The notes under the pieces were generated by a model. The model was not told where the DNA came from and did not search any database. It was given only the letters and a program-made list of their open reading frames with translations. 64,000 bases of DNA from Aquiluna sp. KACHI24 (GTDB lineage: Bacteria > Actinomycetota > Actinomycetes > Actinomycetales > Microbacteriaceae). A program made the translations under genes and the position numbers. Below are positions 1 through 63,128 of this stretch, in pieces (position 1 is the stretch's first letter; the number at the start of each line of letters is the position of its first letter). The stretch is from NCBI RefSeq assembly GCF_025997915.1, contig NZ_AP026677.1, forward strand, positions 1,178,001 through 1,242,000, read 5' to 3'.

Positions 1-330
1 TGCAGGCTTCTCGCCCGGAGTCACACCCTCGGACTCAGAACTCTCATCATCATCGCCTGGTAGGGCCTCTGAAGGGTCGTTTGGCACCACAGGGTTTGGA
101 TCGCGTGGGTTGTTGATGGTGTCATTGTCAATGTCTGAGTCATCACCGTTGACAATGCCATCGCCATCGATGTCGTCATCGGTGTTGGTTGGGTTACCGT
201 CACCGTCGAGGTCATCTGGGTCACGTGGGTCTTCACCATTGCCAGAGTCATCTGGATCGGTTGGATCAACAGGGTTCTCAGGGTCTGGCTTAACCGGGTC
301 AAAGTCCTCGTTCACTGGGGAGCCGGCGAC
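1..330 (-). other. Asp-rich TSP3-like calcium-binding-type stalk of the partial giant protein
   Basis: Translation of this end gives Pro/Asp linkers (PVDPTDPDDSGN) followed by repeats of the D-x-D-G-D-G kind, such as DDLDGDGNPTN and DDDIDGDGIVNGDD. These resemble thrombospondin type 3 calcium-binding repeats. They end in an acidic Ser/Glu segment that runs off the window, so the anchor is not visible. The other giant protein has a Ser/Asn/Gly/Asp stalk here without the D-x-D-G-D pattern. Confidence 0.7.
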
Positions 331-3300
331 CGTGATTGCATCCTGAACAATCACACGACCCCAATCAGAGAAGTGCTCAACTGAGTAGGTGTCGGCAGCC
401 ATGTCCACTGGAACCTTGAAGACCAACTTCTTATCGCTGTAGACGATGTATTGAACAGGCTTACCGCCAAGCTTCAGGCTCTGCAGTCTGTCTAGCTTGT
501 AACCATCAACGGTCACCAGCGCACCTGGCTGCACCACCTTAGGTGTGAAGCTGTACATCTGCGGCATCTTCTCGAACACCTCGGCAGCCAAGCTCTGCGA
601 GGAAGGTGGCGGAGTTGGGTCAGCAGGGGTCACCAGGGTGAAAGTAGTTGGTGTGCTGAAGCCAATCTCGTTACGAGAGGTTACTTCAACGTTGTAGGTG
701 GTGGACCACTGCCAGTTGGCGAAGATCGCTGTGGATGGCGTTGGCGAAACGGTAACGACTTCGCCATTGACCTTTACGGTGTAGTCGATGATGTTCGATC
801 CACCATCAAATACCGATCCTGACCAGGCAATCAGCATGTCTGGTCCGACGGCTTGGGCCGAGAGTGTGGCCGGCGAGCTTGGTCGAACCAAGAGTCGCTG
901 CTGAACCATTGCGGTGTTGATGGCATTCGAGGTTGAGGTGACATCTGTGACCGTGATGATCATGAACTCGTAGTTGTTTGCCATCTGGCCCTGTTGTGGG
1001 ACGTTGTAGACCTGAGGCACCGGCAGCAAGGCTCGCTGGTTGAACATCGGCATGGCAAATGGCGGTGGGTTGACACTAAACAACCTTGCAAACATCGGAA
1101 CCTGGTTTACAGCAACCGAGGCACTCACTGTGACAGAAGCACTGACGGTTGGCTCAACAATTGGAGCCAGTGGCAGCTCCTCCAGAGCGATTTCTGAGGT
1201 GGAGGCACTGTATGAGGAGATGCTGTCCAGCTGGGTGTATTGGTTAGTGCCAACCGGACGGACAAATACGTCATACCTGAGGAACTCACCATCCAACGCC
1301 AGAGGCTCGGACCAGTTTAGGATCGCATCGGTCGCGTTTGAAATTGCGGTGAGTTCCTGAGGCGCCGCGTAGTTTGGTAGCGGCATGACTGGCTGCGAGG
1401 CGTCGGAGAATTCTCCCGCTCCGTAACCAGTGATGGCTGCCACCTTGATGGTGTATTCCTCTTCGTTGGTAAGACCGTCAATCACACAGTCAACAGTTCC
1501 CTGCGGGGTCACAATCGGGCTACCCGAGGCGTCGTACTGCGGCTCAGTTGGCAGCGGAAGACAGGCATAGCTGACAACCGTTGCACTGGTCGAGACATTG
1601 GTTGCAACCAGCTCGTAGGCGGTGATTGGTGATCCACCGCGGTAGCTTGGCTCGCGGAAGGAAACCTTTAGCGATTCATTAGCAGAGGCAACCGAGACGA
1701 TAAATGGCTTGGCCGCTGGTTTTGGCAGCACCTCGAAGCGTTGCTTAACCATTGGAGCCGCACGATAGGTCTGGTTACCGGCCTGTACCGCAAAGACCTC
1801 ACAGGTACCTGCCTGACCGACCGTTAGCAGGCCGGTCTCAGTGACGCTACAGATCTCACTCGAGAAGCTTGGTGCCTGGGTGAAGCGCACGGGCAGACCC
1901 GCGTTAGAGGTTGCCACCAGCTGGAAGGCTGGGTCGCCGAACTCAACGTCCTCAATCTCCTCAAAGGTGATGGTCTGGTTTAGGCGGTCAACTTCAATCA
2001 GCTGGCTCACGCTCGGAGCAGCTAGGTAGTTGTCATTGCCGAGCTGCTGCGCGACAACCAAGCATCGACCAGGTCCCTCGAAGGTGATCTTGGTGCCGTC
2101 ATAGCTACAAGCGGAGACAATCGGTGAGCCAGAAGCATCGGTCTCCTGACCGATGGAGATGGCAACCTGCAAACGACTGGAGGCAACTGCAGTTGGGGTG
2201 TATTCGTAGTTCACGGCAAGTGCACCCGGTGCAGTCTTTGGCTTTGGAGCCTGCGGAATTACCGAGGTGAAGCGAATGAACTGGTTCGCCTTCTGCACAG
2301 TGAAGGACTGGGTCAGTGACTGAGCTACAAAGTAGTTCACGCTTGCTGCCTTAATAGCGCGAATGTCACACGAACCAGCACCGGTTCCCTCAACGAATGA
2401 GCCGCTTGGGGTGTCGATTACGCGACACTTGTCTTGACCGCTAACGACCTGGAAGGTGACCGCACCGATACCGTTACCACCGGCTGCAAAGAGGCGCTGC
2501 TGTCCGCCGAAGTCAACCACTGGGTTAGAGACCATCGAAACGGTGGACTGTTCGGTCGGTGTGACAACGACATCAAGTGCTGTCGAAACCGGGTTGTAGT
2601 TAGCACTGCCTGGCAAGGTGACAAGAACACGACAGGTCGCCGCAGGGACACCACTCACCAACTGCACGTTTCCAGGGAACAGGGTGTTTCCAACTCGGAT
2701 ACACGGCTGAATGTTTTGACCCGCAGCCACAAGCTGAGGTGATGTGGTCAGCTCAAAGGTTGGTGAGGCAGTTACTGTGCCACCGGTGAAGCTCAGCTCG
2801 ATTGATTGACCAAATAGTCTGCTCACCCGATAGGTGTCAGGACCGGTTTGACCAAAGGCAGGAGCAATAGTCTGAGATCCGCTAATCGTCGAAACGATCG
2901 GTGCCTGCTCAGCCTTTGCGATAGTGAAGGTGAAGTCTGTACTTGCAGCCAGCCAGGAGCCACGAACCGCTCCGGAAACACTCACATCGAACTGAGCTTG
3001 GGCCAGGTCTACTCGACACTCTCCAGCCCCGAGGATTGTCACAAGTCCGGTTGCACCATTAACCGAACAGATGGCCGAGGATGCTGCAGCGACGGTGAAG
3101 GACAGCACACCGTCACTCTGAGTTGCGACGGTAGGGCTGACCGTCTTGCCTGGGGCATAGACGGTGTTCTGGTAGCTCAGCGTCAGGCTCGGAGTGCGGT
3201 TGACAAATAGCCCTGCCTGGGTAACTGCCGTCATCGATCCCGCTGCATAGGTAACGGTGTAGGACTCGACCGGGGTTCCACTTAGGGCCAGGTTGGTGAA

Positions 3301-6300: not shown

Positions 6301-9300
6301 ACCCGCGCGAGTGGTATCAGAAAGCTGATTCTTCATCGCGAGCTGGAATGGGTTACCAGGTTGCAGCGAAATCTGCTCGGACGTGTTGATGCCACCATTG
6401 CCTGGGTTGTAACGATAGGTCAGGTTGTAGTTAGCAACCTTTCCATAGAGCGCAACGTTGGAGAAGGTGGCGTAACCTCCCGAGATGTTTGCCGATGGTG
6501 AGACGCTAAAGCTTGCAGAAACACCACCAGAAACCGACATGGTCACGGTTCCAGTGGCACTGGTGGCAAGGTTGCCGAATGCGTCACGGATCTCAACTGA
6601 AGGCTGTGTTGTGAATGCGAGTCGGCTCTTTGCGCCTGCAGCACTGGTGACAACGCTCAGCTGTGCAGGCGCAGCGTGAACAACGGTGACCGAGAAGGTG
6701 TTCGCATCGAAGGCTAGGTCGTTGCCCATCCACTCGGCTGCAAGTGATAGCTCATAGTCGCCTGGGCGAGCAACCAAGATGTAGTTCGAGAAGGTGGCCT
6801 CGCCGTTCTCGCTCGTTACAAGAGCATTCGAGTGACGCTGGAACTGCGGCGTGCCAAGAGCAGATACCGAGACTCTGACATCAACCGAAGAGTCGGTTGA
6901 TGTGACGTTACCGAACATGTCTAGAACTCGGATCGAGAAACTTGGGTAGACCGAACCAACAACGTAGGAGTTCGTTGATGGGTCACCGATGATCTCAAAC
7001 TTGGTTGGGTCACCGTGAATCATTGGGAAAGCCGATGAGGTAGCAACCTCTCCAGAGGCCGTCGCCTGAGCATCACCCTCAACCTCCGTGATCTTCACAC
7101 GGAGCTGGTAGTTGCCCACGGCAGCCGAGAAGCTAGTGTTTGCAAAGCTGACAACACCATTTGATGCGACCGCTTCAGAGGTGGAGGCCACGACAACGGA
7201 ACCATCAACCAGTTCGAGCTTTACCTTGCTTGACGAGTCAAGGCGAACTCGGTTGCCTCGGGAGTCAACCAAGTGAGCAACCGGAGTTGGAGTAAAAGTC
7301 TTGCCAACCTGAATTCTGGTTGGTGCCGCACTCAAGAACTCGATAGCTGATACATCTCCAGCCTGTAGTTCGATGGTCTCGGAAGTCTTGATCACTTGAC
7401 CGTTGGTGTTGGTGATCGTATAGGTCAGGACGTAGTCACCCACCAAGCCATCGAGCTTTAGGTTTTTGCCGGCAAAGTCAATTACACCGCCTACGGCCTC
7501 AACAGTCTTGGTGCCAGCGAAGTCTGGAATGGTGCCACTACTTGAAACCAAACCAACAGTCACAGTTGCGCTCAAGGTCGAGTTTGGTCCGGTGTTTACC
7601 AGGCTGCCTTGGGCATCCAAGATGCGAAGTACAGGTAGTTGGCCAAATACTCGGTTGGATCGAATCGCAGCCGAGTTGGTAACGATGTCCAGCTGAGCTG
7701 CAGTTCCAGCGAGCAGAGTAAAGGGCTGACTCTCGAGCGTTTGCGCATGAACTGGTTCACCAACGTTCGCAGCAGTGAACGTGATCTTGTAACCCGACTG
7801 TGCGATGGCGTTCATGGTCAGGTTATTGAAGGTGACCACACCTGCTACGGCGCGAGTGGATCGACCGTTTAGAGCCGTTGCGCTGCCCGAGGAAACCGCA
7901 GCGGTTACGACGGTTGTGCTGTCAGAAGCTCGGTTTCCATAGGCATCGAGGATCTCCATCCGGATGCCATTGCCGTTGGTTCCCTTTAGCGCAATACCGC
8001 TCTCACCCGTGGCGACATTGCCACCACTGAGGAAGCGCAATGAGGCAGGTGCAGCGGGAAGGACCATGAAAGCTTCAGATGTCAGCGAGTAATTAGCAAC
8101 TCCAACGATTCCAAATTTCAGCTTGTAGTCCGGGGTCAGGGAAGCGCTTCCCGTGGTCGCAAAGTTTGCAAACGTCGCTACACCTGAATTCGCAGCGGAT
8201 TCCGTTACTTCCAAATCAACGCTGTTTGCGTAGAAAATTGTTGCGCTTACAGTCGCGGAAGCCGTCGTGAGGTTTCCCCAGGCGTCCATGATACGGATCG
8301 TGGGGCCTGGGGAAATTGGCTGACCAGCAATTACCTCCGAAGGAACAGCAACCGTGTTTGATGTTGTCAGCTTGACTGCTGCTCCACCAATAACGTGAAC
8401 GGTTTGACTCAAACTCACATCCGTACCCGGCAATGTGAATCTGACCTCGTGGCTGGTGGTGGCTCTAGCTCCAATCACCACATCCGAAATGGTGGCGAAA
8501 CCAGCCCCAGCGCCTGACTTGATTAGCGCGCCTGGCTTTGTGGTGGCTGTGTAGCTCATTGTCGACGTACGCGGACTGCTCGAGTAAACGGCCTCTACAT
8601 TTTGGATACTTGCCCATGATGCACCGGGTCGAGTCCAGTCAGTAACAACGTTTCCGAACACATCCCTGACCGAAACCACGAAATCAGAGGCTGTTAGGCC
8701 TGCCTCAACAGATCTTGGGGACACCTCCGTGCTCAGAGATACCGGAGCAGAGTGAATCAGCCTGATTTCTGGTGTCGGTTCAGACTGGATGTTGTCGGTC
8801 TGGAATCTGAATGAGTAGAGGTTAGCCTCTCCATCCACTGCAGAGGCAGGTGTCACGCGGCCTGAAAAAGCAACGTTTGAGAATGTGGCAACACCGTTTA
8901 CAACCGTAACCTCGGTGGCACCCGAAAGTTCTCCCCCGATGCCGGAGGCGATCACAATAGTGACCTTCGTTAGGCTGTCGCGGACAGTTATGTTTCCTAC
9001 CGAATCCTTCAGGCGAATTACTGCATGGTTAGCAAAATCGGTACCCGTCTCGTGACCCGCCAAGGCTGGGTCTGTCACGTCGAGGGTTGAACAATAACCG
9101 TGGAAGCCATCGATGATGTCTCCATACTCAAGCCTTAGGCCGACAAGTACATCCGAAGCTGAACATGTTGGGCCGTTTGGATGCGTGGAAGCAGAAGATC
9201 CAGCCGGGACCCACGTTTCAGTTGCCAATGCAGAAGGTGAGCCACATTTGATTGCTATTGAAGACGGCCACGCGATGTCGACGCGATTCTTGTTAAGGAT

Positions 9301-25005: not shown

Positions 25006-25092
25006 AGCGCGTACTGCCTCCCCCTGATTGGTGTGCACTCCGATCAGGAAGCTTCAGATTAGCCTTGCAAGCTGACAGGGAAAAATGGCGTA

Positions 25093-25106
25093 TTCGGATA
25101 ACCGAA
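25093..25106. promoter_or_regulatory. Palindrome TTCGG-N4-CCGAA upstream of the partial giant gene (putative operator)
   Basis: A 14-bp inverted repeat with 5-bp arms and a 4-bp AT centre (ATAA on the plus strand) lies 88 bp upstream of ATG 25005. The same arms and spacing occur upstream of the other giant gene at nearly the same distance. It overlaps the left arm of a longer inverted repeat (25104-25148). The regulator is unknown; it may be a shared operator or part of a promoter. Confidence 0.55.
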
Positions 25107-25148
25107 CATTTTCAGAGGTCACTTTTGAAACTCACTTCAAAAATGTTC
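25104..25148. other. Long inverted repeat in the spacer between the giant genes
   Basis: Arms GAACATTTT (25104-25112) and AAAATGTTC (25140-25148) are perfect 9-bp complements separated by 27 nt. An alternative inner hairpin (TTTTGAA / TTCAAAA, about 25123-25142) shares bases with the right arm. The structure starts 3 nt after the stop codon of the upstream giant gene. It is AT-rich with no clean T-run, so it is a weak terminator candidate or a 3'-end/attenuation structure. Confidence 0.4.
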
Positions 25149-25150
25149 CG

Positions 25151-40100: not shown

Positions 40101-43100
40101 GCGCTCAGGTCGCCAGCCTCCGCACCATCGCCCACAATAATGTTTCCCGCGTAGATTTTGATTTCGCCGCTAAGCGATTGATTGTTTCTGATGTAGAGGT
40201 CGCGATTGATGTCGCCTGCCAGAGGCGGCTTTCCGATGGTCAGGCTTCTTGGGCCTACCAATGTTTGCTTGAAAATCTGGTATCCGTTACCCCAAAGATC
40301 AGCAAAGTAGTTATTGGTGTAAGGCAGGAACTTAACATCACCCGAGAGACGATAGTTAGACGTATCTGCGCTAAATCCAAAGTTGTCCGAGATAAAGGTG
40401 ATGTTCGCACTCGAGGTTGGGACGTAAGCATTACCCGCGACACTTCCAAAATTACGATTTTTTTCAGAGGTTGCGAGGTCCAGAGAAGTGATCTTTCCGC
40501 CGCCATCTACGGTTATATCGCCTGCCGCCGAAAGAAGATTTATCCTTCGAAGGTACATGCTGTATGCGCCAGCACCTGTCTGGCGAGCTATTAGCTCGAC
40601 ACCTCCACCAGTGGTAGCAGCCGAAGCAACCGTAATTAAATTGGATCCTCCTGATCCATAAAGTCGCAATCCCTCGTGGGTGGCTCCAGCAGAGACGCCA
40701 GAAATTCGAACCGCGGGTGAGCTGGAGGCATGAGAAACGATGGTTATAAAGTCGTTGAAGTTAGTGTCAAGGTCATAGTCAATAAAAGCGAAACCTCTAC
40801 CATCCGCAGTAGTTTCACCCGTTAGATCTATCGAACCCGTACCGCTAAATATCTCTGTTACCGGGTAGGCGAGCAAACCGTAGCTCGAATTGCTTCGGCC
40901 TCGCATGACTATGTCTCCGCCACCCGAATAGATCTCCAAGTGGGGAAGTAGAAAGATTGCCCAGGTTGCGCCTGAACGCCCGCGTGCATAACCGTCTGGT
41001 CGCCCATCTAGATTGGAGTCAGCTCCACCTGCAATGAAGATGTCTCCGCCACCGGAGACGGCAGTTTTGTCTTCGACTCCGTTTGCAGTATTTAGCTTGG
41101 CGTACCATCCGATCTTTACGTCACCAGCACCGTTGCTGTCTGCATCTGACCAAATGGTGAGGTCTCCGCGATTGGTTTGAAGCCTGGAGATACCAGTTTC
41201 CAGAGTGTTGCTGCTACCGTCCGTGACCTCAATAAAGTCAGCCGCTTTTAGGGTTACACCAGACCCGACTCCCGTTGTCATCAAGTCGTATCCAGAGTCG
41301 AGGTCAATGCTTCGTCCAAAGACTCGGAGTGCGCCATTGGAGGTTACTGAGTTGTAAAGGATTATGTCGTGAACGGCGGTCGCGTAACCAGAATCGACTC
41401 CCAGGGTAAAGCTGCCAGCGTTAACCAGTGGCCACCAATTGATGTTGGCTCCGAAGTTAGATCCAAAAGGCAAAACCGCCACCGCGCCAGAAGTACTAAA
41501 CGCAGCTGACCTTTGGTTTCCAATCACACCGTTGGCGATTACGTTTATGCCGGCCACGGAGCTGGATACGCTCGTGCCAGCGCGTTCGCCCCAGTGCTGG
41601 GTGAAGTTTTCATTTGTAAAACTAACGACAGCGTTCGAGCTAAATGTAACCGCTCCAGTCTTCGACAAGACGTTCACAGCAGCTAACCAAGTTCCGGTGT
41701 TGGTGGAAGTTGAACCCAAGTTTGAGGTAATTGACACTCCACCGCCAGCATCGGCCAGCGACTGAATCGTTGTCGGGTTGCTGGAATTCTTCGTGTAAAT
41801 GCGAACAGCCTGGGTTCCGGTACCGCTAATCCTGGCTGAAATTGAAATTGCAGGCGTCGATGTTGCTTGGGAGGAAAAGAGCGCTCCGGCCTCGGTTTCT
41901 TGATCAGTGAAGAATTCAAAAGCTTCTACGTCTCCACTGCCAGTTACTGCAGCCTCAACCAAGATTTGACCGACACCAGTTACGAATTCACCTTGGCTCT
42001 GGAAGTTGAAGGCCGAATGACCTCCTGCGACCTTTTTACTTGCGCGAACCACCCAATCTCCACCTCCGGTGAAGATGTCAACGAACTTTCCGAGACCGAC
42101 CGCGAGGTCAGTGTTAGTTGCAGATTGGCTCCTCTGGCCCGTATCCCAAGCTTGTCCTGCAGGGCGGCCGGATCCATCGTCTGCTCCGCCAGCCATGATG
42201 ATATCGCCGCCGCCGGTCAAGGGACCGTATGAGTAAACGCCGTTGGCAGAGTTGATGCGGGTGTTGTGAGCAATCCAAATCAGACCCTGCTGGTTGGCGT
42301 CAGAATCCGCCCAGAAAATTATGTCGCCGTTATTGGTCTGGATAGTGCTGAAGCTAGCATCGGTACCTTGCACATTCGTAGTGGTGTTGTTGACAACGTC
42401 AATCCAACCTCTTGCCTTCAAGGTGATTGGGCTGTTGGCGCCCGAAGCATAGAGGTCCGCCCCCACATCGACCGTCACGGCGAATGCCGACACGGTGATG
42501 GGATCAACACTGTTCAAGTCTCTGGCGATCTTGAAATTCTTCGATGATGTGTTGACGGCAAGGTAGTTTCCAATTTCAACAGAAGAGGCAAAAACATCAA
42601 AATTCAAAGTTGAATCGGCTTCGAAATTAACGTTTGCTGGCGTAACCCGAACTCTTCCTGAGGTTGAAATCAGCGATGAGGCATTTGCCGTGGTGTCCAG
42701 CAAGGCACTCGTGCTGATGTTAATGTCTGCACTCGAGGTTGGAACGCTTGAGCCGCTCTTGGATCCAATCCATCTAGCATCGGCAGTTGCCCAGTTGAGA
42801 TAACCGTTTGAGAAAATGTTTATGTCGCCTGCTGCAGACAGCAAGTTAGTGACGTCGGTCAATAGCATGCCCGATGTGTTGGTTGCCCCAGTGATCGCGG
42901 AAATTGAAATTCCAACATCTACCTGGCCGGTAGAGACCATGGTTAGGTTCTGGGTGTCTGTCTGCTCAAATGCCTCATTGGATGTGGCACTGGTTTGGGT
43001 ATAAATCTCGATGGCTGGAGAGACGGTGGCAGCCGACTCCCAGCTTCCGCCCTGGTTTCGGTACCCGTTCTGGGCATTCTGTGACACAGCATTCAGGTAG

Positions 43101-46100
43101 ATCTTGCCGGTGCCGGAGTTGACGATAGAGCTCGAATTGTGATGGAAGGCGTCATAACTAGCATTTGACTTGACTCGGATGGCGATGTCTCCGCCACCGG
43201 ACCAAATCTGAGAGTTGCTCTGGAATACAAGCGCGTACTCAGTCGTCGAATTCATGGCAACGGCTCCAAGAGGATGCCCTCCGGAATCCACTCCGGTGTT
43301 TCCATAGCTGCCGCCAATCGTTATGCGGCCGCCGCCAGACTGGCCAGATGTGACTCTGCCATTTGCTGAATTGAGGACCACATACGAGCCCAGGTAGATC
43401 TTGCCAACACCTGAATTGTCAGCATCCGACCAAAGGATTATGTCGCCGTTGTTCGTCTGGATAAGCGACCTTGCGATTGAGCTAGTTCCATTGTTGAAAT
43501 TTATGGAATCCGACGCCTTGAGCAGGATTCGAGCCGAAACCGAGCTCAAGACGATGCCTGCGTCATTAGAAAATGCGACCTGATTACCCAAAAGCGTCAA
43601 TGACCCTATGGTTCCGGAAACAGAAGCCTGGACGGAAATTAGACCGCTAGTTGAGACGACTGTATTGGATGCTGATAAATATGTCGATAGATCTGAGGCC
43701 TTTATTGTCGCCGTCCCAGAGGTGCTCGAGATGAACTCCCCAAGTGCAAAGGCTCCAGTTGTAGGTCCTGCCGATGTGATGTCGATAGCCGAAGGAGTAA
43801 ACCCGACAGTTAGGTCCAGCGTGGTTCCGACGAACGCATCAGATGTGAAGGTGAGTGTCACCACTCCCGTTGCAGCCGAAGAGAGCCCGAGTCCAGCAAA
43901 GTCGTAAACGCCGTTTACGGGTGTTACGGAGTGAGACTGAGTTAGGAGCACGCCGTTCAACGTGAGTACGTTAGACGATGCAGTGACCGTCACACTTGCA
44001 GTCGAGCTGGAGGTGACGCCAACTGCACTAAAGGCCTGCAGTCTGATTGAATCCTTGAGCATGGAGCCCGCTCGCACAACGGCCGGAGATCGCGTAACTT
44101 GCAAGTAATCGCCATAGGAAAGAATGACGACACCTGCTGCGCCATCTCCTCCTCGAGTCTCCGAGTCTGTCCCATAGCCGTAGTTGGTTGCACCACCAGA
44201 TCCAGTCGTTTGCGGACGGTCGGTATTGGATACGTCGGTCCACGAACGGAAAGTTGCTTGCTTAGAAAAGACTTCCTGGGCTCCCGAGAGATTGAAGGTT
44301 CGTCTCTGGACTGGCAACGCAGAACCAAGTGAACCAGTGCCGGCGCCGAGCGAGTTCGGAGCCGAGAGGCCCTGATAGCCAAGGAACGTCCTGCCACCGA
44401 AAACTATTCCAGATGCAGAGTAGGCTCCTCCCGCTCCAGAGGTTCGTGCTACATCGCCCTTCGCACCTCCTCCGTTTCCACCGACCAAATAGGTTGATCC
44501 ACCTCGTCCTGGATTTGCAGCTGATGCGGCACTAACACCCTGGCCACCACCTCCGCCGCCAACCAGAAGTGGGCCGATGGTCGAGTCGCCACCGTCGCCA
44601 CCGACACAGGTGGAGCATGAGCCGCGCCCTCCCATGCCAACTTGGATTGCAACGGTCGACGATAGGGTCAAATTGTCGGTGTAAAAAATCGCACCAGAGC
44701 CACCACCACCACCTGTGGTGTTTGCAGCAGAGTCTCCACCACCGCCGCCGCCAGCAACTATGAGTGCCTTATACCGGGTTGACACTGCAGGCGGCGTCCA
44801 ACCTCCAGCGCTTGTGAGGTACGACCTCATGAATCGCAAAACGGTTTGCGATCCGTGTGCGACCGATGTTTGAACGATTCCTGACGAGGTTAGGTCTGTC
44901 TCAGCGTAACTTCCTGAGACGGCCTGATTGTAAATGAGAGTATTTCCATTGCCAGACCGGTCCATCAAGGCAGTGCTGGAAAATTCGTTGAAATCGTAAT
45001 GAGCTCGAAGAGTTGGTGAGGTTATTCCCGCGGTGGAATATCCATACATTGACGCTTGAACTTGGGCCGCACTGAGGGCTCCATTCCAGACCTTAACCTG
45101 ATCAATCTCCCCTGGGAACTCCTGGTTGGTATTTTGGCGAGTGCCTCCGAGTGTGAAATATGTTCCTGCAGCACTAGTTCGGGCTAGTGATCCAGTCCAG
45201 GCTAGGTTGCCATCGATAAAGAGCGATGAGTTGCCTGACGCTGGCATCGCCCATGCAACGTGCGTCCAGACACCACTCCTGATTGATACGTCAATTGTCT
45301 TTGCTTCATTTGGGCTAGTTAGGTGAAAAGCGAGTCCATCGAACCAAATTGAGTAGCGGGAAGTAGAGGAATCCGTGTCATCCATCTGCGAGAACAGTCC
45401 AGTCCAGCCCGTACTTGAGCTCAAGCCCTCCGGTTTGACCCAAGCTTCAAAAGTCCAAGTGCCGTTTGTTGCGGTTGGAATGATTGCGGTCGAGTTCGTA
45501 TACGCGTAGTTGAATGCCAAGCCAGTTTTCTTCCAGGCGTTGTCATTACTGGGCTGGTAACTGAAGATTATGATTCCAGATCCGCCACTTCCACCGTCAG
45601 TTCTCTGGAAAATTCCGTTATCGGCACTGTTGGTGCTAAACGCATTACACGCAGAGCCACCACCACCACCACCACCGGTGTTAGCAGCTCCCTCTTGACC
45701 AGCCGAAGCTCCATTTCTGGCCGAACCATCATGATTCAGTTTGTAGTTGTTTCCCCGGCCACCGCCCCCAGCACCACCCGCGGATCCCCACGCGCTGTTT
45801 CCTTGGTTGACTGTGTCATATCCAGTTCCGCCACCTCCTCCGCCGCCAAATGCTCTGGCAGAGTCAGCTCCAATAGAAGAACTTGGGCCATCAGAACCCG
45901 CAGTAGCCGCGCGCCCTGTGTTCGGTCGGCAAAAGTCATCCGCCTGTCCACCCGGCCCACCGCTGAATCCAACGCCACCTCGGCCCCCTGAGCCACCCGG
46001 TGAAGAGAGTGCCCCGAAGCCTCCGCCGCCCGTACCACCCTGAGCCAAATAATCCATACCTGCGCCGAGAACCGAGGATGATTCTCCCGTTGTTGCGTTG

Positions 46101-47158
46101 AATGGGCGAAGCCATGATCCAGCCCTGCCACCCTGCCCAACTTGAACCGCTACTGATCCCCCAGGAGTCACTGACTGGCTGACGCTGGCACGCATTTCAC
46201 CACCACCACCACCAGAGCCATTATCTGGTCCTCCACCACCACCAGCACCAATCACCAGTACTTGAAGCTGTCTTACACCTTGTGGAACAAGCCAGCCCCC
46301 TGAGCCGGGAAGGTAGGTTCGGGGGAAGGTTACAGCTGTGCCACCGCCAGCTAGAGCCCTCACCTGCTTAACGTCGGAGTAGACAATTTGTGTTGCAGCT
46401 AAATCAACCGCGCCGACTCGATCAAAGACCGTAGTGCCTGTTCCTTCGTTGAAATCCCAGTAAACTCCGGTGCCTGTGCTGGGTGCTTGCCGGGAATGCA
46501 TGTCAGAAGCGACAGAAGAGCTGCGGTCTGACTGCCAAACCTTGACTTCATCGACTTGGCCGCTAAACAGCCAGTTTTGATTAGTAGTGCCTCGAGCCCA
46601 GCTGCCAATTGCAAAGTACTTGTTGGCTTGATTAACACCTGAGTCTGTTCGGGAACCTCTTGAATGAACGAGCGCTCCGTCGACGTAGAACAACGTATTA
46701 GTGGCTGTCATGACCAAGGAAACGTGGGTCCATCGATTTGGAAGCACCGCGACTCCAGTGTTTACTTGGACGTCCCATGCAGTTCCTGTGCCAACCCAAT
46801 ATCTCCAGGTCCCACTAACGTTCTGGATTGCGAACTTATGTTCCATGTTCACGAGTATTTGCTCTACAGCGGTTTGAGCTCCGGCGCCTGGGTTCACCCA
46901 GAGTTGAACACTGTAGGGATTGGTGCCAGTCGGTTGGAGAATGTTTCCCGCCGACGATAAACCAAGAATTGTGCCGTTACTTGTACCTGACAGGTTGGCG
47001 GCAAAGTCCACATCCGAATTCCAGCCAAGATCTTGATTAGCTTTCGCGCCGGACAGAGCTAGGAGAGTAAGGCATGCTGATGCTAAAACTGCTCCTAATG
47101 CAAGCCCAAGCTTGCGCAACCAACCGGTTGCGCTTCGCACAAGCTTCAGCTCTCTCAT
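25151..47158 (-). CDS. Giant multidomain cell-surface protein/adhesin with C-terminal membrane anchor
   Basis: Complete 7335-residue protein. I prefer ATG 47158 because it has GAGGGA 3-5 nt upstream and is followed directly by a signal peptide (basic MRELKLVRSATGWLRK, then LGLALGAVLASACLTLLAL, cut near AKA); a GTG 33 bp upstream at 47191 lacks a ribosome binding site. Approximate residues: LamG-like 53-250; Gly-rich 300-530; LamG-like 543-760; Gly-rich 797-1017; one Ig-like domain; predicted beta-helix 1120-3290; about 27 Big-1-like Ig modules 3300-6320; five paired-Cys modules 6320-6757; about three FN3 domains 6760-7095; IPT/TIG 7117-7200; Ser/Asp/Asn/Gly/Glu stalk; transmembrane segment and basic tail. 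It is paralogous to the next gene, 145 bp downstream. A long stalk presenting lectin-like domains is inferred; the ligand is unknown. Confidence 0.93.
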   Translation of the reverse strand: MRELKLVRSATGWLRKLGLALGAVLASACLTLLALSGAKANQDLGWNSDVDFAANLSGTSNGTILGLSSAGNILQPTGTNPYSVQLWVNPGAGAQTAVEQILVNMEHKFAIQNVSGTWRYWVGTGTAWDVQVNTGVAVLPNRWTHVSLVMTATNTLFYVDGALVHSRGSRTDSGVNQANKYFAIGSWARGTTNQNWLFSGQVDEVKVWQSDRSSSVASDMHSRQAPSTGTGVYWDFNEGTGTTVFDRVGAVDLAATQIVYSDVKQVRALAGGGTAVTFPRTYLPGSGGWLVPQGVRQLQVLVIGAGGGGGPDNGSGGGGGEMRASVSQSVTPGGSVAVQVGQGGRAGSWLRPFNATTGESSSVLGAGMDYLAQGGTGGGGFGALSSPGGSGGRGGVGFSGGPGGQADDFCRPNTGRAATAGSDGPSSSIGADSARAFGGGGGGGTGYDTVNQGNSAWGSAGGAGGGGRGNNYKLNHDGSARNGASAGQEGAANTGGGGGGGSACNAFSTNSADNGIFQRTDGGSGGSGIIIFSYQPSNDNAWKKTGLAFNYAYTNSTAIIPTATNGTWTFEAWVKPEGLSSSTGWTGLFSQMDDTDSSTSRYSIWFDGLAFHLTSPNEAKTIDVSIRSGVWTHVAWAMPASGNSSLFIDGNLAWTGSLARTSAAGTYFTLGGTRQNTNQEFPGEIDQVKVWNGALSAAQVQASMYGYSTAGITSPTLRAHYDFNEFSSTALMDRSGNGNTLIYNQAVSGSYAETDLTSSGIVQTSVAHGSQTVLRFMRSYLTSAGGWTPPAVSTRYKALIVAGGGGGGDSAANTTGGGGGSGAIFYTDNLTLSSTVAIQVGMGGRGSCSTCVGGDGGDSTIGPLLVGGGGGGQGVSAASAANPGRGGSTYLVGGNGGGAKGDVARTSGAGGAYSASGIVFGGRTFLGYQGLSAPNSLGAGTGSLGSALPVQRRTFNLSGAQEVFSKQATFRSWTDVSNTDRPQTTGSGGATNYGYGTDSETRGGDGAAGVVILSYGDYLQVTRSPAVVRAGSMLKDSIRLQAFSAVGVTSSSTASVTVTASSNVLTLNGVLLTQSHSVTPVNGVYDFAGLGLSSAATGVVTLTFTSDAFVGTTLDLTVGFTPSAIDITSAGPTTGAFALGEFISSTSGTATIKASDLSTYLSASNTVVSTSGLISVQASVSGTIGSLTLLGNQVAFSNDAGIVLSSVSARILLKASDSINFNNGTSSIARSLIQTNNGDIILWSDADNSGVGKIYLGSYVVLNSANGRVTSGQSGGGRITIGGSYGNTGVDSGGHPLGAVAMNSTTEYALVFQSNSQIWSGGGDIAIRVKSNASYDAFHHNSSSIVNSGTGKIYLNAVSQNAQNGYRNQGGSWESAATVSPAIEIYTQTSATSNEAFEQTDTQNLTMVSTGQVDVGISISAITGATNTSGMLLTDVTNLLSAAGDINIFSNGYLNWATADARWIGSKSGSSVPTSSADINISTSALLDTTANASSLISTSGRVRVTPANVNFEADSTLNFDVFASSVEIGNYLAVNTSSKNFKIARDLNSVDPITVSAFAVTVDVGADLYASGANSPITLKARGWIDVVNNTTTNVQGTDASFSTIQTNNGDIIFWADSDANQQGLIWIAHNTRINSANGVYSYGPLTGGGDIIMAGGADDGSGRPAGQAWDTGQRSQSATNTDLAVGLGKFVDIFTGGGDWVVRASKKVAGGHSAFNFQSQGEFVTGVGQILVEAAVTGSGDVEAFEFFTDQETEAGALFSSQATSTPAISISARISGTGTQAVRIYTKNSSNPTTIQSLADAGGGVSITSNLGSTSTNTGTWLAAVNVLSKTGAVTFSSNAVVSFTNENFTQHWGERAGTSVSSSVAGINVIANGVIGNQRSAAFSTSGAVAVLPFGSNFGANINWWPLVNAGSFTLGVDSGYATAVHDIILYNSVTSNGALRVFGRSIDLDSGYDLMTTGVGSGVTLKAADFIEVTDGSSNTLETGISRLQTNRGDLTIWSDADSNGAGDVKIGWYAKLNTANGVEDKTAVSGGGDIFIAGGADSNLDGRPDGYARGRSGATWAIFLLPHLEIYSGGGDIVMRGRSNSSYGLLAYPVTEIFSGTGSIDLTGETTADGRGFAFIDYDLDTNFNDFITIVSHASSSPAVRISGVSAGATHEGLRLYGSGGSNLITVASAATTGGGVELIARQTGAGAYSMYLRRINLLSAAGDITVDGGGKITSLDLATSEKNRNFGSVAGNAYVPTSSANITFISDNFGFSADTSNYRLSGDVKFLPYTNNYFADLWGNGYQIFKQTLVGPRSLTIGKPPLAGDINRDLYIRNNQSLSGEIKIYAGNIIVGDGAEAGDLSAGSTVSLVARADLRLYEDITTQGGNIWIQSRANDAVEGGVLINSANFRSNGGDILISGGSSPLTSYAIGTSESTQYLGVSLDLGSTLNSGTGNITIRGSQGPDNDPDDGVGAYLSDAQISATSGNIRVYGRLADQPIGGAIDEEHSGILTYGAIITTTTGDIELIGDGRAVTGNKDEKRGVFLWPATITSTDGDITISGEVNSSAADSHDQQIWYSGANGSVIRSTNGAVSLLGKGSSRVWTATTTLQAGSELLIQDDTPQFDSTTWTGSARVTVQSSASAFVTVPTSLGQVTAHSGLSALTLGRSTETGTWTINKAFSINGPVLVHGGSIEIQQDLTSSSTSASITLKSRGNILTSASVDFSTQNGDVTFWSDTDNNGAGSIRFGASNTIQTRGGKLTIAGGLDDGGAGSGISGRSANDGYPDGYAVDTSNTQNRAGVELQTGRSFVTSGGDVFIAASGGGNAADRYGMFSAQGVTNAGSGRIAVWATLRPLTSGDYNYAWFAAYDTTNQWSYVQGGSDQWISSATNTDAITINVNSSNGSGQFSSALNAELPVASSGYAPGFRVAATGVGGEVNISAVGGTNNGVRNDGMGAPIHLQYSEILSRDGRITIESTLSATAPTHAGISLGDTAGDNSDATWNASDRVYLGASPVSNSPITTSSAQIVLRSNSIDFSDGVSDVRKVIVSTSGTLTLEPLTTSFRSELTTRGLDPRVGNLVIAKSGNSSTVTIHASHPVSISGTTTVFAGNFNQAGSVTSSAGVVVNSDDIAIGASLSSRDGSVTIRPQTLNRPIDLGTNASNRLGLVQSELSFIETPRLRFGSATTGDIFVTQNVSVAASQVTSVRLSTPGSVTSTGSILTAQNLAIDAGGGVNLPGSNSVSGAVAISASSMVTYSSAVSYSPLAVDGVSPVFGVGTAISQTNSPTTEEANEFLAVAFNPPPRFAITDTYSKVLDANNRLAYSYSVTATVASGSGTLTGLSTTTRVGGLISFSDLKVTTGVGVYAFTVSATVDNTTLQTRSVDYNVMAGEPGQLVVVANTASSVVGQTGLHFTVTVKDAYGNAITAGDHKNITVSASVSGTTATIVSGDKVKANDSGVATFNSLVIAASTSDTVTVSFAVTYTALTSETRTVTSSGTLITLTPGAPTQLAISSDAQTQANRSTLSQVVVRLLDAYGNQSLNRTGTISAVIGSGSGASLIGTTNSPVATGSNVAAVSTFSNLALRGTVGTFRLDFSYSSVGVASVSHTVTLTPGAATRLALDTAAAGARAGIAFTTQPRLSLRDADDNVVPGAASVSATMISPTLSGTTTVPIEAGFATYSDLAYANTATTRTLSYRVTAPAGLTALSTSQALTLTAGLPYQLVWATTAANKIAGEDQNPQRIDLKDEWGNLTSQSASVSIQVQRVSSTDSSQVLASSTVTISPQASSVSLSVETVRVTAVGSYKYKAVTAGLQEALSNTFVITNGATAKLRILQDMPSSVRSGMTFSPVVRLEALDAYNNPVLNKDLSISATVISGSAISLVGTSVAMVSGSSIIEFPDLAVEALASNLRLKFAVTTIYTNVSVSSQVFAVTFGEASRLTVSPTAISVANRATLNQLSVNVLDSAGNLVGDANTNVVASLTGASLNGTTSVYASSGIANFSSLSISGTVGGYTISFTATGLASATTSITLTHGVAAFVDLTVSATAKNAQNLATQPVVKILDADGNLVTSGEESDQTIELIVSPGTLTGTTAISASGGIATFSGVALQGTIGSHTLTGRIYLPSQLSDNETITLGFGDATKLTLETQGAGAASGIALTTQPILKLRDSSNNIVTGVAHNVVAALSPAASLSGTTVAVDTSTGIATFTALSISGTVGSYSISYSIEGASSSAVASVSQEIELTHGVATNLRVISQPTSGIAGATLSALVVEVIDSRGNRVTTGPTSSKSITITNAAEGAVFGTKSVSLSSGVATFDNLALEKANPNQRLNFTVTGFVSWFTTNFNVTAGSASELVISSGQPVNKKAGDNQSSVMYIRLEDGLGNIATAQSNITVIVQAVSSSDTAYVSKSVKTSTINAGGTFISLTGAELRIDKVGSYKIKATASGLDAALSDTFVISNAQASKLVVVQNVASSIRSKMTFSPAVRLQVQDQFNNPVVDSVTTVSTTIVSGSANAITGSTASNILGDSFIELPDLAVEGSAGTKRLRFSATSNSAGASITFVESQNFALTFGEPVRLSASATAVSVANRTTITDIVLSVLDSAGNTVTDSSAQIQATISGIALSGTETRYASSGQINFTGLSLAGSIGTYDLGFTSTGLTGATVSVTVAHGAADYLTLTKPAAAKNHISLGADAVVVKIFDADGNLVTSGGQSTQTVQLSSLGAVSSGTTAVSASAGVATFSNVVLTGLVGTKTLSATIQLPSQISVSGAIELEPGNPYRLELTQAADGFSNRVVFGTAPIVTVEDVSGNTVPTPGMDIRIKVATVSISGSVTASAQTGVATFASNLVLRGTAGSHTLIYEAEGTSSSGVISASQVITLNHGAASQLVVTTSVSDALSGVDFGTQPIVELRDPEGNRVSTSNQATATVEVSYSGAVWDAQTKQGVTLTGTRAISLSAGIGEFSALRLSGVAGSYNLDFSFTDQPSISISSAVTLEPGNATGISVVQGPQNVVAGELFAQSVSAEIIDDYYNRVTRVTASATLVANLKSATNSALISTSAEFTAQNGLVVFNGLTFESAGSRFIQFASGPGSSLPNLNASTSTTFVITHAAPNALQWTTLPAASVANDAVIAGQGSAYPQLKALDRFGNLVDTGTVSFVAEVTSTPAPQSFTGVSVDGVSGVGTFQNLMLRATVGNYTIRFKANTDTNANYFASISHTIEVLHGIPTQVVATTHPSAVRAGVNFATQPVIEIRDSAGNRVSSSNAVVTLTATGADLTGQTQSTAVNGIASFTSAQLSGSISGAVTLNYAITYQSQTISTSESVNLTPGLADYMVLDWTAADIQTRAAISPAPIVRLYDEFGNLVTLDNATQVTAKLYRLGSLVTTSNQVFTASAGVVDFTGLTFIATPNQGYSLQFESTGLSDVSSSAITVLPGPVDRVEIVEQPGTGAGVTQTRTGNALTNQPRVKLVDFDGNVVTTVNSGSVTAAIASGVDGQVTTASVSVSAGIAQFTDLGLIGKVATPTQSAEIYRLEFSYNGITSSPSAQLTLKHNVAHKIVQIQDAVGGPAGLDFLTQPKVKVVDGFGNTVFDDARITILAVPEVASGTGGVSVAGNNEAQTDASGVATFDMGLAGSTGNTYKLVFKDDQEALIPASQSGIVITYGQARQLFISRAASATDSNSVRSMTGEALKVQPVIEVHDDWGNRVLNSNHTITVSLSSTVRGARDYLKGYTVSAVAGVATFSNLAMIVLPETSYQLTYKFTGNSTALTQPTAVWVTHALAEYITIERQPQGGNKTGNSLSLSPVVTVRDFDGNPTTTITGQTISATITQGAGSIAANGQASLVGGVATFSNLTIVALPGENQRLTFTLDGYQNSASQAVTSVASNEISVTFNDPHQLAVIQQPSANAVTAELLGTQPKVVVQDQYGNTVSDFVGSVWVEAQNGSRLVDGSDNTIPSISAQVSGGVATFVSLRIEGEANQHYSLTFNSGALTSTTSNPVTLTHTSAYSLRIVTQPVGAITGQLLANQPSVEILDRFGNVTDTDNASQVSVSVFSGPNRPGGSAAQISGSTTVTVQNGLATFSGLKFTGLVNADYVFRFASGAITTNSNVVRVTSAGADSFVWVQLPQVDKTGELMPTPAVLKVLDFDGNLAVSSSDSVTVTVTGGGYIESGTTSQIVNGYVTFSSLILVAPPSVSQQLTFTATTGQGSFSINTPYNLQVRHTDASELRVNRSPNQVGQQGAAFTTQPRIYLYDRYGNKAIYDNSTVVTATIASGSGGAVSGSASVTANAGEANFSSLALTGSPGVAYTLKYSVGSSYEVVDSTALRLFKTAAIQVSYPTVNFSLSATVAPTVAVTDSTENPLVFTSTTTQYCTVNGSTGVATIVEAGTCVIRVSVADGTYYKQNVLDVNLVILKATQTTLLMTSPNFVDYGQVLTLTHSGGSSTATPEYFASGTCRAFGNQLMMFGDATEDTTASCTVRVIQDGDQNFEPALSAGQRITVRKIAQAALTIGNSRETSVGDLELFTIGGSGPGTVSYQVSSGVGTATCSIVDGNKLRATTNGWCEVGAQKNASTNYNTASSPVAIFTFSKQVQVVTFTSAVPGMLLPGQSYQLAASASSGLSVSFAITRGLEVQASAQTSYSPAICSLSQSTVTMLGTGTCEITATQAGNAQFAAATAKLILTVGQLNQVISFPQPDDMVYGTPTSRLTAQASSGLPVRYTVSAGVTACTVTTDGLLTLTSAGDCSVVASQPGDGRYAAAAPVTRFFKVTPDQASSPALLSAAVGNQWFTVGFTQPSYTGGSSIIGYRLEVTDVASGDRYVNSACSTSAPLSCTMVGIPNGRNYTARVAAITAAGIGRYSSATAALTPTNAEISVTQLQAGISGANLVMEWTPPAAVSGNFLRYDVYVWPQGSTPPQTPTQAVTTQSATTTAVDVTSMSSSGTISQIVNQVQPVFVNAFQVRSRVVVFGAVNQGPMGFIRLASSQSQVATASNLVGYEIRVVTVTDEHSTSQTINTAMGVKLGLSTPEAPTQLTLDTTDPTKIIASWGAPNFDGGFPIDDYEVRANGQVICANIQIRMCEISPLTDSTLYRIEVRARSAAGFGAIASAQHTTPTPPAVSLNSGTELLVRLPAMQNFIPKLVRPGQVVEVGGTKLNAINELRLGGVKVDFTAVSATELRFRVPLGTQPGTYNIEHFSEFGKVTVIDAITVITGSLTESPITESPSTDSPDTDQTESPETGNTESPEVPNDGNGSSDNGSSNGGSDSSDSGNNRPEDSGNDSGSGSDNPGGDSADGDGSEPEVEPGDETQSEVALPAGRAEPTLMLWWLLIALLIAGASLWLLSRNRGDRP
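25178..25264 (-). other. C-terminal anchor: LPAG motif, transmembrane helix, basic tail
   Basis: The last residues read ALPAGRAEPT, then a 20-residue hydrophobic helix (LMLWWLLIALLIAGASLWLL), then SRNRGDRP. The order motif-helix-positive tail is that of a sortase signal, but the motif is LPAG and lacks the Thr-Gly of LPxTG or LAxTG. It may be a plain membrane anchor or a signal for an unusual sortase. Confidence 0.65.
25265..28200 (-). other. Paired-Cys modules, FN3, IPT/TIG and acidic stalk of the complete giant protein
   Basis: About 28200-26890 encodes five modules each with two cysteines about 13-35 residues apart, for example AICSLSQSTVTMLGTGTCEI followed by Q-x-G-x-x-x-[FY]-x-A-A. These resemble MBG/Ig-like repeats. 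About 26880-25870 encodes three FN3-like domains (for example EAPTQLTLDTTDPTKIIASW, GGFPIDDYEVRANG). About 25810-25570 encodes an IPT/TIG domain (RPGQVVEVGGTKL, INELRLGGVKV, PLGTQPGTYNIEHFSEFG). About 25560-25270 is a Ser/Asp/Asn/Gly/Glu/Pro stalk. The partial giant gene has the same order at 3230-330. Confidence 0.7.
28200..37250 (-). repeat. Ig-like (Big-1/invasin-type) domain array of the complete giant protein
   Basis: About 27 modules of about 112 residues each, recognised by D-x-x-G-N (LDAYGNQSLNR, KDEWGNLTSQS, LDADGNLVTSG, VDGFGNTVFDD, YDRYGNKAIYD), then a G-x-A-[TN]-F-[ST]-x-L core and a G-x-[YH]-x-[LI]-x-[FY] strand. Cysteine is essentially absent. Modules are highly diverged. Such arrays form rigid extracellular stalks in intimin/invasin and RTX-type adhesins (established for the family). 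Confidence 0.8.
37300..43790 (-). repeat. Predicted beta-helical region with five super-repeats (complete giant protein)
   Basis: FHA-like short-strand sequence. A unit reading T-N-N-G-D-I-x-[LF]-W-[SA]-D-[AS]-D-x-x-x-x-G-x-I occurs near 43430, 42310, 41160, 40030 and 38980, so the period is about 1.05-1.15 kb. In four of the five it is followed by a GGG-[DR]-I block and a G-[RH]-P-x-G-x-A segment. The region ends at VDGVSPVFGVGTAISQT, matching the junction in the paralogue. Confidence 0.65.
44110..46260 (-). repeat. Gly-rich low-complexity tracts around the second LamG-like domain
   Basis: Runs of Gly codons (plus strand ccaccaccacc) are densest near 44700-44755, 45656-45683, 45760-45850 and 46199-46253. 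Between them, about 45530-44880 encodes a LamG-like domain (GTWTFEAWVKPEGL, WTHVAWAMPASG, SLFIDGNLAWTG, GEIDQVKVWNGALS). Confidence 0.75.
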
Positions 47159-47234: not shown

Positions 47235-47258
47235 ACCGAAATCTTCGGTATACCGAAG
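47235..47258. promoter_or_regulatory. Operator-like triple half-site, includes perfect palindrome CTTCGGTATACCGAAG
   Basis: Positions 47243-47258 are a perfect 16-bp palindrome. A further half-site ACCGAA (47235-47240) pairs with TTCGGT (47244-47249) as a second inverted repeat, giving three ACCGAA/TTCGGT half-sites in 24 bp. The palindrome ends 85 bp upstream of ATG 47158 and has the same TTCGG-N4-CCGAA core as the site before the second giant gene. Its centre (TATACC) could also form part of a -10 element. Confidence 0.6.
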
Positions 47259-47283: not shown

Positions 47284-47312
47284 AATCCCCTGGGTTTTGA
47301 ACCCAGGGGATT
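47284..47312 (-). terminator. Rho-independent terminator of rplJ-rplL
   Basis: A 13-bp perfect stem (AATCCCCTGGGTT / AACCCAGGGGATT) with a 3-nt loop lies 19 nt after the rplL stop. On the minus strand it is followed by TTTTCTTGTT. A CTTTTTT tract on the other side makes it potentially bidirectional. It insulates the ribosomal operon from the giant genes. Confidence 0.9.
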
Positions 47313-47331: not shown

Positions 47332-47715
47332 TTACTTCAGGGTTACCTTGGCGCCGGCAGCCTCAAGCTTTGCCTTTGCGTCCTCAGCAACGTCCTTCTT
47401 AGCACCCTCTAGAACAGCCTTTGGAGCGCCGTCTACTAGAGCCTTTGCCTCACCGAGGCCTAGGTTGGTGATGCCACGAACCTCCTTGATGACCTGGATC
47501 TTCTGGTCACCAGCGGACTCAAGGATTACGTCGAAGGAGTCCTTCTCCTCTGCAGCCTCAGCTGCACCGCCAGCGGCGGCAACTGCAACTGCTGCAACTG
47601 GAGCTGCAGCGGTAACCTCGAATACCTCTTCGAACTTCTTAACGAACTCAGAAAGCTCGATCAGGGTTAGCTCCTTGAATGCCTCAATGAGCTGGTCGGC
47701 AGTTAGCTTTGCCAT
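47332..47715 (-). CDS. rplL: 50S ribosomal protein L7/L12
   Basis: 127 residues, the usual length for L7/L12. The N-terminal dimerisation segment ([34 protein letters not shown]) is followed by an Ala/Gly-rich hinge (residues about 36-58) and the C-terminal factor-binding domain with [26 protein letters not shown] and the terminal [13 protein letters not shown]. It forms the mobile stalk of the large subunit with L10 and recruits translational GTPases. The start ATG has AGGAG 6 nt upstream. It lies 28 nt after rplJ and is followed by a strong terminator, so it is the last gene of the operon. Confidence 0.98.
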
Positions 47716-47743
47716 TTGTATCTCCTAAGTGGTTTACGTCTTG

Positions 47744-48256: not shown

Positions 48257-48446
48257 GGCACTCCTTTTGTTGGTGCCGGCAAGAGAAAACAAAAATGCCC
48301 CGGCGCAAGCGCGCACGGAGCAAAACTCAAAAGAGTATCTCTTTACACACCTGCGCTGGCAGTCACTTTCGTGAACCCTTAGTCGAGGTGGTAGAACCTA
48401 GATTGCTCTTAGTTTTCCCAAACCCCGATACCGGCGGTCTTTGGCT
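48257..48446 (-). ncRNA. L10 leader region (ribosomal protein autoregulatory RNA)
   Basis: About 190 nt lie between the predicted transcription start and rplJ. Near the 5' end the RNA would read GGAAGCCAAAGACCGCCGG, then UAUCGGGGUUUGGG, which resembles the conserved L10-binding internal-loop motif of bacterial rplJ leaders. A later GC-rich hairpin region (CGUGCGCGCUUGCGCCGGGGC) precedes the ribosome binding site. Assignment rests on position and partial motif similarity; a covariance-model search would settle it. Confidence 0.55.
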
Positions 48447-55697: not shown

Positions 55698-55796
55698 TTT
55701 CTCCAGAAATTCCTTAGAGAGTTTAGAGGGGATTGGGTGTGTGCGAAACCGGAACTTTTGCTCCAAATTGTCACACCGTGGGTAGAAACTAACTCC

Positions 55797-63088: not shown

Positions 63089-63128
63089 GCCCAACCCCGG
63101 ACAGCGGTGATGGTCTTCATTCATAAAT

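Follow-up and report, generated by a model that had tools for sequence, protein, structure and literature searches.

Two giant genes for predicted surface proteins occupy a variable chromosomal slot in Aquiluna sp. KACHI24

Introduction

Genome-streamlining theory holds that small free-living plankton should shed costly genes. Against this expectation, the tiny river bacterium Aquiluna sp. KACHI24 carries two adjacent giant genes, here called A and B, which cover 47,142 bp counted from their ATG codons, so that 3.2% of a 1.46-Mb genome is spent on two predicted surface proteins. What are these proteins, and why would such a small genome keep them? We analyzed a window of 64,000 bp (positions 1,178,001–1,242,000 of the one-contig, 1,459,348-bp genome; 52–56% GC) and compared it with related genomes. 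The KACHI24 genome is closed and has 53.8% GC, with a PacBio HiFi read set of 389.9 Mb (N50 14.2 kb); A and B are unmentioned in the paper describing it (PMC9583784). For Aquiluna and Rhodoluna, no relevant report on giant proteins or surface proteins was found in the openly accessible literature, nor was a report on actinobacterial giant proteins, adhesins and two-component systems. The passages of PMC12422013, PMC4156110 and PMC11577799 retrieved by term look-up do not mention giant or surface proteins.

Two intact paralogous genes

The locus is made up as follows.

1–25038, minus strand: giant gene B (open frame and translation; its end lies outside the window)
25151–47191, minus strand: giant gene A (open frame and translation)
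47284–47312: terminator-like hairpin between rplL and A, present on both strands
47332–48316, minus strand: rplL and rplJ, bordering the slot upstream

Gene A is an uninterrupted frame of 7346 aa from a GTG codon, or 7335 aa from the ATG at 47158, with a product of about 750 kDa. Gene B runs 129 bp past the window edge (locus L006 17873) and encodes 8388 aa from its GTG, or 8377 aa (about 862 kDa) from its ATG. No internal stop was present in either frame. The initial annotation, made from the window alone, had given lengths of 7335 and at least 8335 codons, in agreement with these values. It had also described a tandem pair of giant paralogous genes and proposed aligning the two translations. 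BLASTP of A against B gave 17 segments over most of their length, the best with 28% identity over 3111 columns, confirming the paralogy of the two intact frames.

At 63128–63189 of the window, a tandem repeat with a period of 23 lies just before an AAA_14/DUF4143-like ATPase (63202–63999), whose frame exits the window and which matched the PADLOC candidate PDC-S01 (E 2.8e-40). At genome positions 950205–952906 (L024), two neighboring secreted ORFs (347 and 506 aa) end in the same 40 residues, which suggests recent duplication or exchange.

Domain architecture

The domains of the two proteins, all on the minus strand, were located as follows.

45056–45478: A, Laminin_G_3, the better of two head stretches (Pfam)
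45554–46297: A, Gly_rich_2, the better of two head stretches (Pfam)
37826–43462: A, beta-helix region with five units, each some 370 aa, unit four in two halves (HMM; partial AlphaFold solenoid)
28223–37333: A, array of 28 Ig-like repeats, each some 105 aa, with a 29th preceding the beta-helix (HMM)
26882–28159: A, five paired-Cys modules (HMM and cysteine count)
25862–26839: A, FN3 region, approximate limits
25178–25237: A, C-terminal membrane helix, followed by a basic tail (translation)
24382–24819: B, Laminin_G_3, head (Pfam)
22078–22758: B, Gly_rich_2, the better of two stretches (Pfam)
15526–21399: B, beta-helix region, five units, the fourth in two halves (HMM)
11140–11601: B only, LamG inside the Ig array, the better of two stretches (Pfam)
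9091–9519: B only, six cysteines in three pairs inside the Ig array (translation)
1723–3147: B, five paired-Cys modules (HMM and cysteine count)

Three Pfam domains exceeded their cut-offs in both proteins: Laminin_G_3 and Gly_rich_2, which are N-terminal, and fn3, which lies close to the C-terminus. A Glyco_hydro2_C5 match in the Ig array of A scored 33.3 bits (cut-off 32). Beta-helix units, Ig-like repeats and Cys modules were counted with HMMs built for this analysis. Each protein had six beta-helix stretches, two of which were halves of one unit, giving five units after merging; these counts depend on merging the half-matches by hand. The Ig-like repeats numbered 29 in A and 30 in B. Five Cys modules were detected in A and four in B, and the Cys region of each contained exactly ten cysteines, i.e., five pairs; B's second module had no HMM match and was counted solely from its cysteines. 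No Pfam match to TIG was found in A or B at E ≤ 0.01, and both the TIG domain and the acidic stalk were assigned by eye. In B, and not in A, the Ig array is interrupted by an insert that comprises two LamG stretches and a module of three Cys pairs. The domain order of the initial annotation was largely reproduced by Pfam and the HMMs; it had omitted the C-terminal membrane helix with its basic tail and the insert of B.

That annotation had also noted that the number of paired-Cys modules equaled the number of beta-helix units, both being five. Five Cys pairs were constant in all eight family members examined, A and B included, so this half of the observation held. Beta-helix units were not constant: after merging of halves, the HMM gave 5 in A, 5 in B, 6 in genome G018, 7 in G012 and 7 in G010. 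As sister species differ by one unit, equal unit counts are no sign of a constraint on the beta-helix.

AlphaFold modeled 896 residues of the beta-helix region of A as a solenoid (mean pLDDT 75, pTM 0.73). A Foldseek search of the PDB with this model returned 49 matches at E ≤ 10, none of them under 0.001. They were weak and mostly to beta-helix adhesins and enzymes; the best was the adhesin EtpA (PDB 8vbb, E 0.024). A possible resemblance to TpsA/filamentous-haemagglutinin adhesins, which have a right-handed beta-helix rod, lies in the predicted rod, which makes up about a quarter of A and B, and these differ from that type in their one-membrane host and in having no TPS/Haemagg_act secretion domain detectable by Pfam at E ≤ 0.01. 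Giant adhesins of the LapA/SiiE type combine RTX calcium-binding repeats with type I secretion, and no Pfam match to an RTX repeat was found in A or B. A model of the head from a five-row alignment reached a pTM of 0.34 and failed in its Gly-rich parts; the LamG domains alone were moderately confident.

Membrane anchoring

Translation of the C-termini of A and B gave an acidic stalk, a single membrane helix and a basic tail. Aquiluna is a one-membrane bacterium. Neither protein has an L[PA]xTG motif in its final 1000 residues; ahead of its helix, A carries LPAGR. A sortase gene is present in KACHI24, and none was found in G010 or G012, both of which have giant genes. The helix without a preceding LPXTG, together with the giant genes of these two genomes, points to anchoring in the membrane.

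A polytopic C-terminal domain is present in G003-B, G004, G012, G017, G018, G046, G237, G350, L028 and L029 and absent from A, B, G010 and G127. With their single helix, A and B thus represent a variant within the family. The polytopic domain gave no Pfam match at E ≤ 0.05. It is about 400 aa long (L008 8714–10120, minus strand, and relatives), ends most Aquiluna and Rhodoluna family members, and recurs in a 2284-aa frame elsewhere in the KACHI24 genome, near 1,397,081.

A family in small-genome Microbacteriaceae

We defined a family by a homologous C-terminal region of Cys modules and FN3, which A and B both have. Judged by this region, A and B belong to a family of giant predicted surface proteins of small-genome Microbacteriaceae that includes Rhodoluna lacicola. 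A search of 22 Aquiluna genomes with the C-terminal FN3 region gave matches in 12 at E ≤ 0.001, many through single domains only. The same query, which was built from Aquiluna and so favors near relatives, matched 13 of 398 Microbacteriaceae at 1e-20; these belong to 4 of 85 genera. Every positive has a genome of at most 1.8 Mb, in a comparison of sizes that covered the positives and all but 365 of the negatives; small genomes among the negatives listed are G041, G048, G050 and five Aquiluna.

R. lacicola MWH-Ta8 (G046), whose genome is given as 1 430 433 bp (PMC4156110), has a homologous frame of 7968 aa. Giant genes were found in three further genomes of the genus Rhodoluna (G127, G237 and G350), and two Actinomycetales MAGs also carry family members. 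The frame of G237, a 1.42-Mb genome, is 10,947 aa long (L149–L151, 1258930–1291770), longer than A or B. The Rhodoluna genes share the homologous C-terminal region with A and B. Those of G127 and G350 also lie at rplL, as A and B do, whereas rplL is absent from the 37 kb around the R. lacicola gene. Unlike A and B, the proteins of G046, G237 and G350 have the polytopic domain.

An occupied or empty chromosomal slot

In KACHI24 the gene order is rplL, the A/B pair, a ZIP gene and nrdF. The initial annotation had suggested looking for the pair in related genomes. The slot was readable in 21 of 22 Aquiluna genomes (G013 did not have both anchors) and proved to be occupied in 10 and empty in 11. 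Family members filled it in seven genomes (KACHI24, G003, G004, G010, G012, G017 and G018, the genes of G004 and G017 being contig-end pieces), as a single giant gene in G012 and in G018. Other large secreted-protein frames, interrupted by contig ends, filled it in three (G001, G019 and G020). No large surface gene was present in G002, G005–G009, G011, G014–G016 and G021. In nine of these 11 genomes rplL faces the ZIP gene across 50–57 bp. In G016 the ZIP gene is replaced by a 418-aa transporter-like frame (Nramp-like by eye).

Parsimony, read by hand on an eleven-protein species tree with missing data in many genomes, gave about three independent losses. One was in G002, one in G008 with G009, G011, G014, G015 and G016, and one in G005, G006, G007 and G021, which are incomplete genomes (76%, 84%, 55% and 64%, respectively). 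In the slot of G002 a secreted TIG-like ORF of 192 aa remains (L031 3736–4299, minus strand). Its relatives adjoin the giant genes of G003, G012, G017 and G018, and it looks like a footprint of giant-gene loss.

An old duplication

The tree built from the Cys/FN3 region placed A beside G012 and G018, and B beside G003-B. Both groupings had 100% support, whereas support was weak at two deeper nodes (38 and 47%). G010 has a 340-aa fragment beside its giant gene that is nearer to B (37%) than to A (30%). G003 has at least three tandem genes, interrupted by frameshifts and contig ends. As KACHI24 and G003 belong to different deep branches of the species tree, A and B would have diverged before that split. 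With orthologues of each in other Aquiluna species, the two genes appear to stem from an old tandem duplication, as the initial annotation had proposed, within a chromosomal slot whose position is fixed.

Exchange of heads and selection on the base

The giant proteins of G012 and G018 were compared along their length. Identity was 91–98% over residues 5501–7500, 73% in the stalk and 90–93% in the polytopic end. Residues 1–1250 were 39–61% identical, and the part in between was a mosaic with identities of 49–93%. Relative to G012, G018 has one beta-helix unit and six Ig repeats fewer. The head of A is 48% identical to that of G012 and 37% to that of G018.

For synonymous divergence (dS), the head gave about 2.0, the beta-helix 1.45 and the Ig array 0.61; values above 1 are near saturation and may be inflated by misaligned units. 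In the base the dS values were 0.19 (FN3), 0.29 (Cys modules) and 0.43 (polytopic end), and seven neighboring genes gave 0.13–0.29. Selection on the protein alone would not be expected to produce such a step from base to head; read most simply, it means that diverged copies took the place of distal parts in the G012/G018 pair. Heads thus look exchanged between close species.

The dN/dS values between G012 and G018 were 0.08–0.11 in the Cys modules and FN3, within a range of 0.08–0.16 from the beta-helix to the C-terminus, and 0.26 in the head, the head and beta-helix values resting on high dS. These ratios support purifying selection in the membrane-proximal part. The statement that the duplication was kept under selection holds to this extent; for the pair as a whole it was too strong, with the slot empty in 11 of 21 genomes and a single gene in G012 and G018.

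A linked kinase/response-regulator pair

Two candidate regulatory genes lie 6–9 kb from the slot genes.

53282–55039, minus strand: histidine kinase, candidate sensor (HATPase_c E 7.5e-05; co-occurrence)
55023–55862, minus strand: response regulator with receiver and LuxR-type HTH, candidate activator (Response_reg above cut-off; co-occurrence)

Response_reg scored 51.8 bits in the regulator (cut-off 30.2), a clear receiver domain as in two-component systems of the NarL/LuxR type; GerE in the regulator (23.1, cut-off 23.5) and HATPase_c in the kinase (23.6, cut-off 26.4) were slightly below their cut-offs. A regulator at least 69% identical was found in nine of the ten genomes with an occupied slot (KACHI24, G001, G003, G004, G010, G012, G017, G018 and G020). 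The exception was G019, which is 77% complete. None of the 11 genomes with an empty slot had one; the match in G014 was 35% identical and elsewhere in the genome. Fisher's test of regulator against slot occupancy gave p = 3.4e-5 with relatedness ignored, and the linkage may come partly from shared ancestry. PfkB and a RecB-like gene, which flank the pair elsewhere, are adjacent in G002, G007 and G014; in G016 PfkB is gone along with the pair, and G008 retains a broken regulator remnant. For the remaining empty genomes, several of them incomplete, the absence was read from a genome search.

In the Rhodoluna group, where the comparison covered giant-bearing genomes, a regulator 54–59% identical was present in all four, near HAD/TM341 or DEAD-box genes in three. 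The R. lacicola genome has relatives of both regulator and kinase.

A candidate operator palindrome

The sequence TTCGG-N4-CCGAA occurs about 100 bp upstream of the ATG in both A and B.

47244–47257, unstranded: palindrome TTCGGTATACCGAA, candidate operator of A
25093–25106, unstranded: palindrome TTCGGATAACCGAA, candidate operator of B

Of 13 slot genes, 11 have an exact core, CGGnTAnCCG, in the 300 bp that precede them. The exceptions were G003-B and A, whose palindrome has an AT center and departs from the core there; the gene start of G004 is unassembled and hence outside this scoring. The core was also exact in the 300 bp upstream of six of ten regulator genes, or eight when one mismatch was allowed, and no close core precedes the regulator gene of KACHI24 (3 mismatches) or G010 (2). 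Six control patterns in the same stretches hit 0–1 of 13 slot genes and none of the ten regulator genes. In these counts targets were chosen by gene, with 300 bp each and start sites set by hand; the motif was first noticed in some of the sequences later scored, and the hits are not all independent because G004, G012, G017 and G018 are close relatives. In four Rhodoluna-group regions the core was seen inside open frames only and not upstream.

Frequency alone was less telling. In 727 kb of Aquiluna DNA the core had 28 hits, and four permuted patterns had 7, 15, 23 and 30, so that the core was not commoner than one of them. Twenty-two of the 28 lay just upstream of secreted-protein or regulator frames and six did not, a proportion biased upward because some of this DNA was chosen for large surface genes. 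In the window, the motif with up to two mismatches was not significantly enriched (36 matches; shuffles averaged 27, and 7 of 100 had as many). The exact sequence TTCGGnTAnCCGAA was tried as the mark of a genome-wide regulon and rejected, with 11 sites in 22 genomes and 8 for the reversed pattern. Counts alone therefore say little, and the evidence for the palindrome is positional. A sorting by hand covered the 11 sites themselves: eight precede secreted-protein frames and one precedes the broken G008 regulator. The other two lie ahead of, or at the start of, a small ORF with a DivIVA-like gene after it; they occupy corresponding positions in G005 and G009, both with empty slots (L061 1501 and L062 970).

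In KACHI24 the looser TTCGGN4CCGAA has eight sites, against two for the reversed pattern. Two of the eight lie inside unrelated genes and one upstream of PTS genes. At 1,156,769 (L072 1501) a site and the start of a lipoprotein-like frame overlap; this frame and a glycosyltransferase-like one are divergent. The palindrome also precedes a secreted-protein frame at 913,800 (L060 1501) and, at 51,478 (L069 1501), a second response regulator, 44% identical.

Discussion

What would these proteins do? We consider it probable that A and B form a regulated, dispensable, membrane-anchored giant adhesin or coat with exchangeable tips, encoded in a fixed slot with a linked regulator. The architecture, anchoring signals, orthology, slot polymorphism, regulator co-occurrence, common palindrome and head mosaicism are read from the sequences; from these we infer the export route, disulfides, regulation, binding and ecological role. 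A signal peptide would direct A and B through the Sec pathway, and the C-terminal helix, or the polytopic domain in most relatives, would fix them to the membrane. A long stalk would be built from FN3, modules stapled by disulfides and some 28 Ig-like repeats, with the beta-helix rod beyond it and a distal LamG/Gly-rich head that is probably glycan-binding. With heads replaced by recombination, the molecule would act like a surface filament with exchangeable tips, in contact with particles, cells, grazers or phages; the initial annotation had suggested a central role in surface interactions such as attachment, grazing or phage defence.

The nearby kinase/regulator pair probably switches the giant genes on, most likely through the CGGnTAnCCG palindrome, which would also act at the regulator's own gene, as it precedes this gene in most relatives. 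More tentatively, it is possible that a dedicated, autoregulated two-component system and a single slot form a unit that is kept or lost together, a sensor-controlled switch between a bare and an armed surface.

Another function for the same proteins would be a defensive coat, which mainly hinders ingestion of the tiny cell by protist grazers rather than attaching it. Protein size and the planktonic host fit such a coat. SwmB of Synechococcus WH8102 (10,791 aa), likewise a giant protein on the surface of a small bacterium of the plankton, is reported to act in swimming motility and in resisting protistan predation (PMC9387257). However, SwmB belongs to a cyanobacterium, and its likeness to A and B is drawn from its published description. 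The LamG heads and the exchange of heads speak for specific binding, and loss in half of the genomes would require variable grazing, so we regard a mainly defensive role as unlikely.

A phage arms race, with the proteins as receptors or decoys and with head exchange and locus loss as escape, seems more doubtful still. The high, near-saturated head dS beside a conserved base and the repeated loss of the locus are what it would produce. It leaves the benefit of the proteins to the cell and the link to a sensor unexplained, and PADLOC gave no match in the three pieces examined, two from A and one from B (the middle of A and both ends of B lay outside these pieces).

It is very improbable that the genes are dispensable baggage, i.e., repeat-rich genes that grow by duplication and stay near-neutral until lost. 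Variable unit numbers and about three independent losses would suit this, but the low dN/dS along the protein, the lack of stops across 22–25 kb per gene and the ten cysteines retained in all eight members disfavor it. An assembly or sequencing artefact, which very long repetitive frames invite, can practically be dismissed given the closed HiFi genome (PMC9583784), open frames of 7098–8169 aa at the corresponding place in three other genomes, and few near-identical tandem repeats.

The preferred reading, a regulated adhesin or coat with exchangeable tips, has partial parallels, all compared by published description. The nearest one found is in Lactobacillus kunkeei, which has tandem genes for giant extracellular proteins; these differ from A and B in resembling EbhA and streptococcal adhesins, and the account given there does not describe a LamG/beta-helix/Cys-module plan or a regulator link (PMC4494060). 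SwmB is the nearest functional parallel found. The cell-wall genomic island of Haloquadratum walsbyi holds fixed, highly variable surface proteins in synteny, but in an archaeon and with smaller genes (Hmu2 homologues of 1350–3072 aa) (PMC4535781). LamG heads, Ig stalks, beta-helix rods and giant tandem genes are each known. New is their combination in streamlined plankton with a presence/absence slot that has clean empty alleles, a co-lost regulator with a candidate operator, and a head/base dS step.

If slot and regulator do form a unit, a minimal cell would deploy very long filaments with interchangeable tips, adhesive or predator-resistant. R. lacicola is the subject of a genome-editing paper (PMC11577799), and natural pairs with and without the giant genes exist. 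The slot, the sister species in which it is empty and the linked regulator make the cost and benefit of such proteins a testable question.
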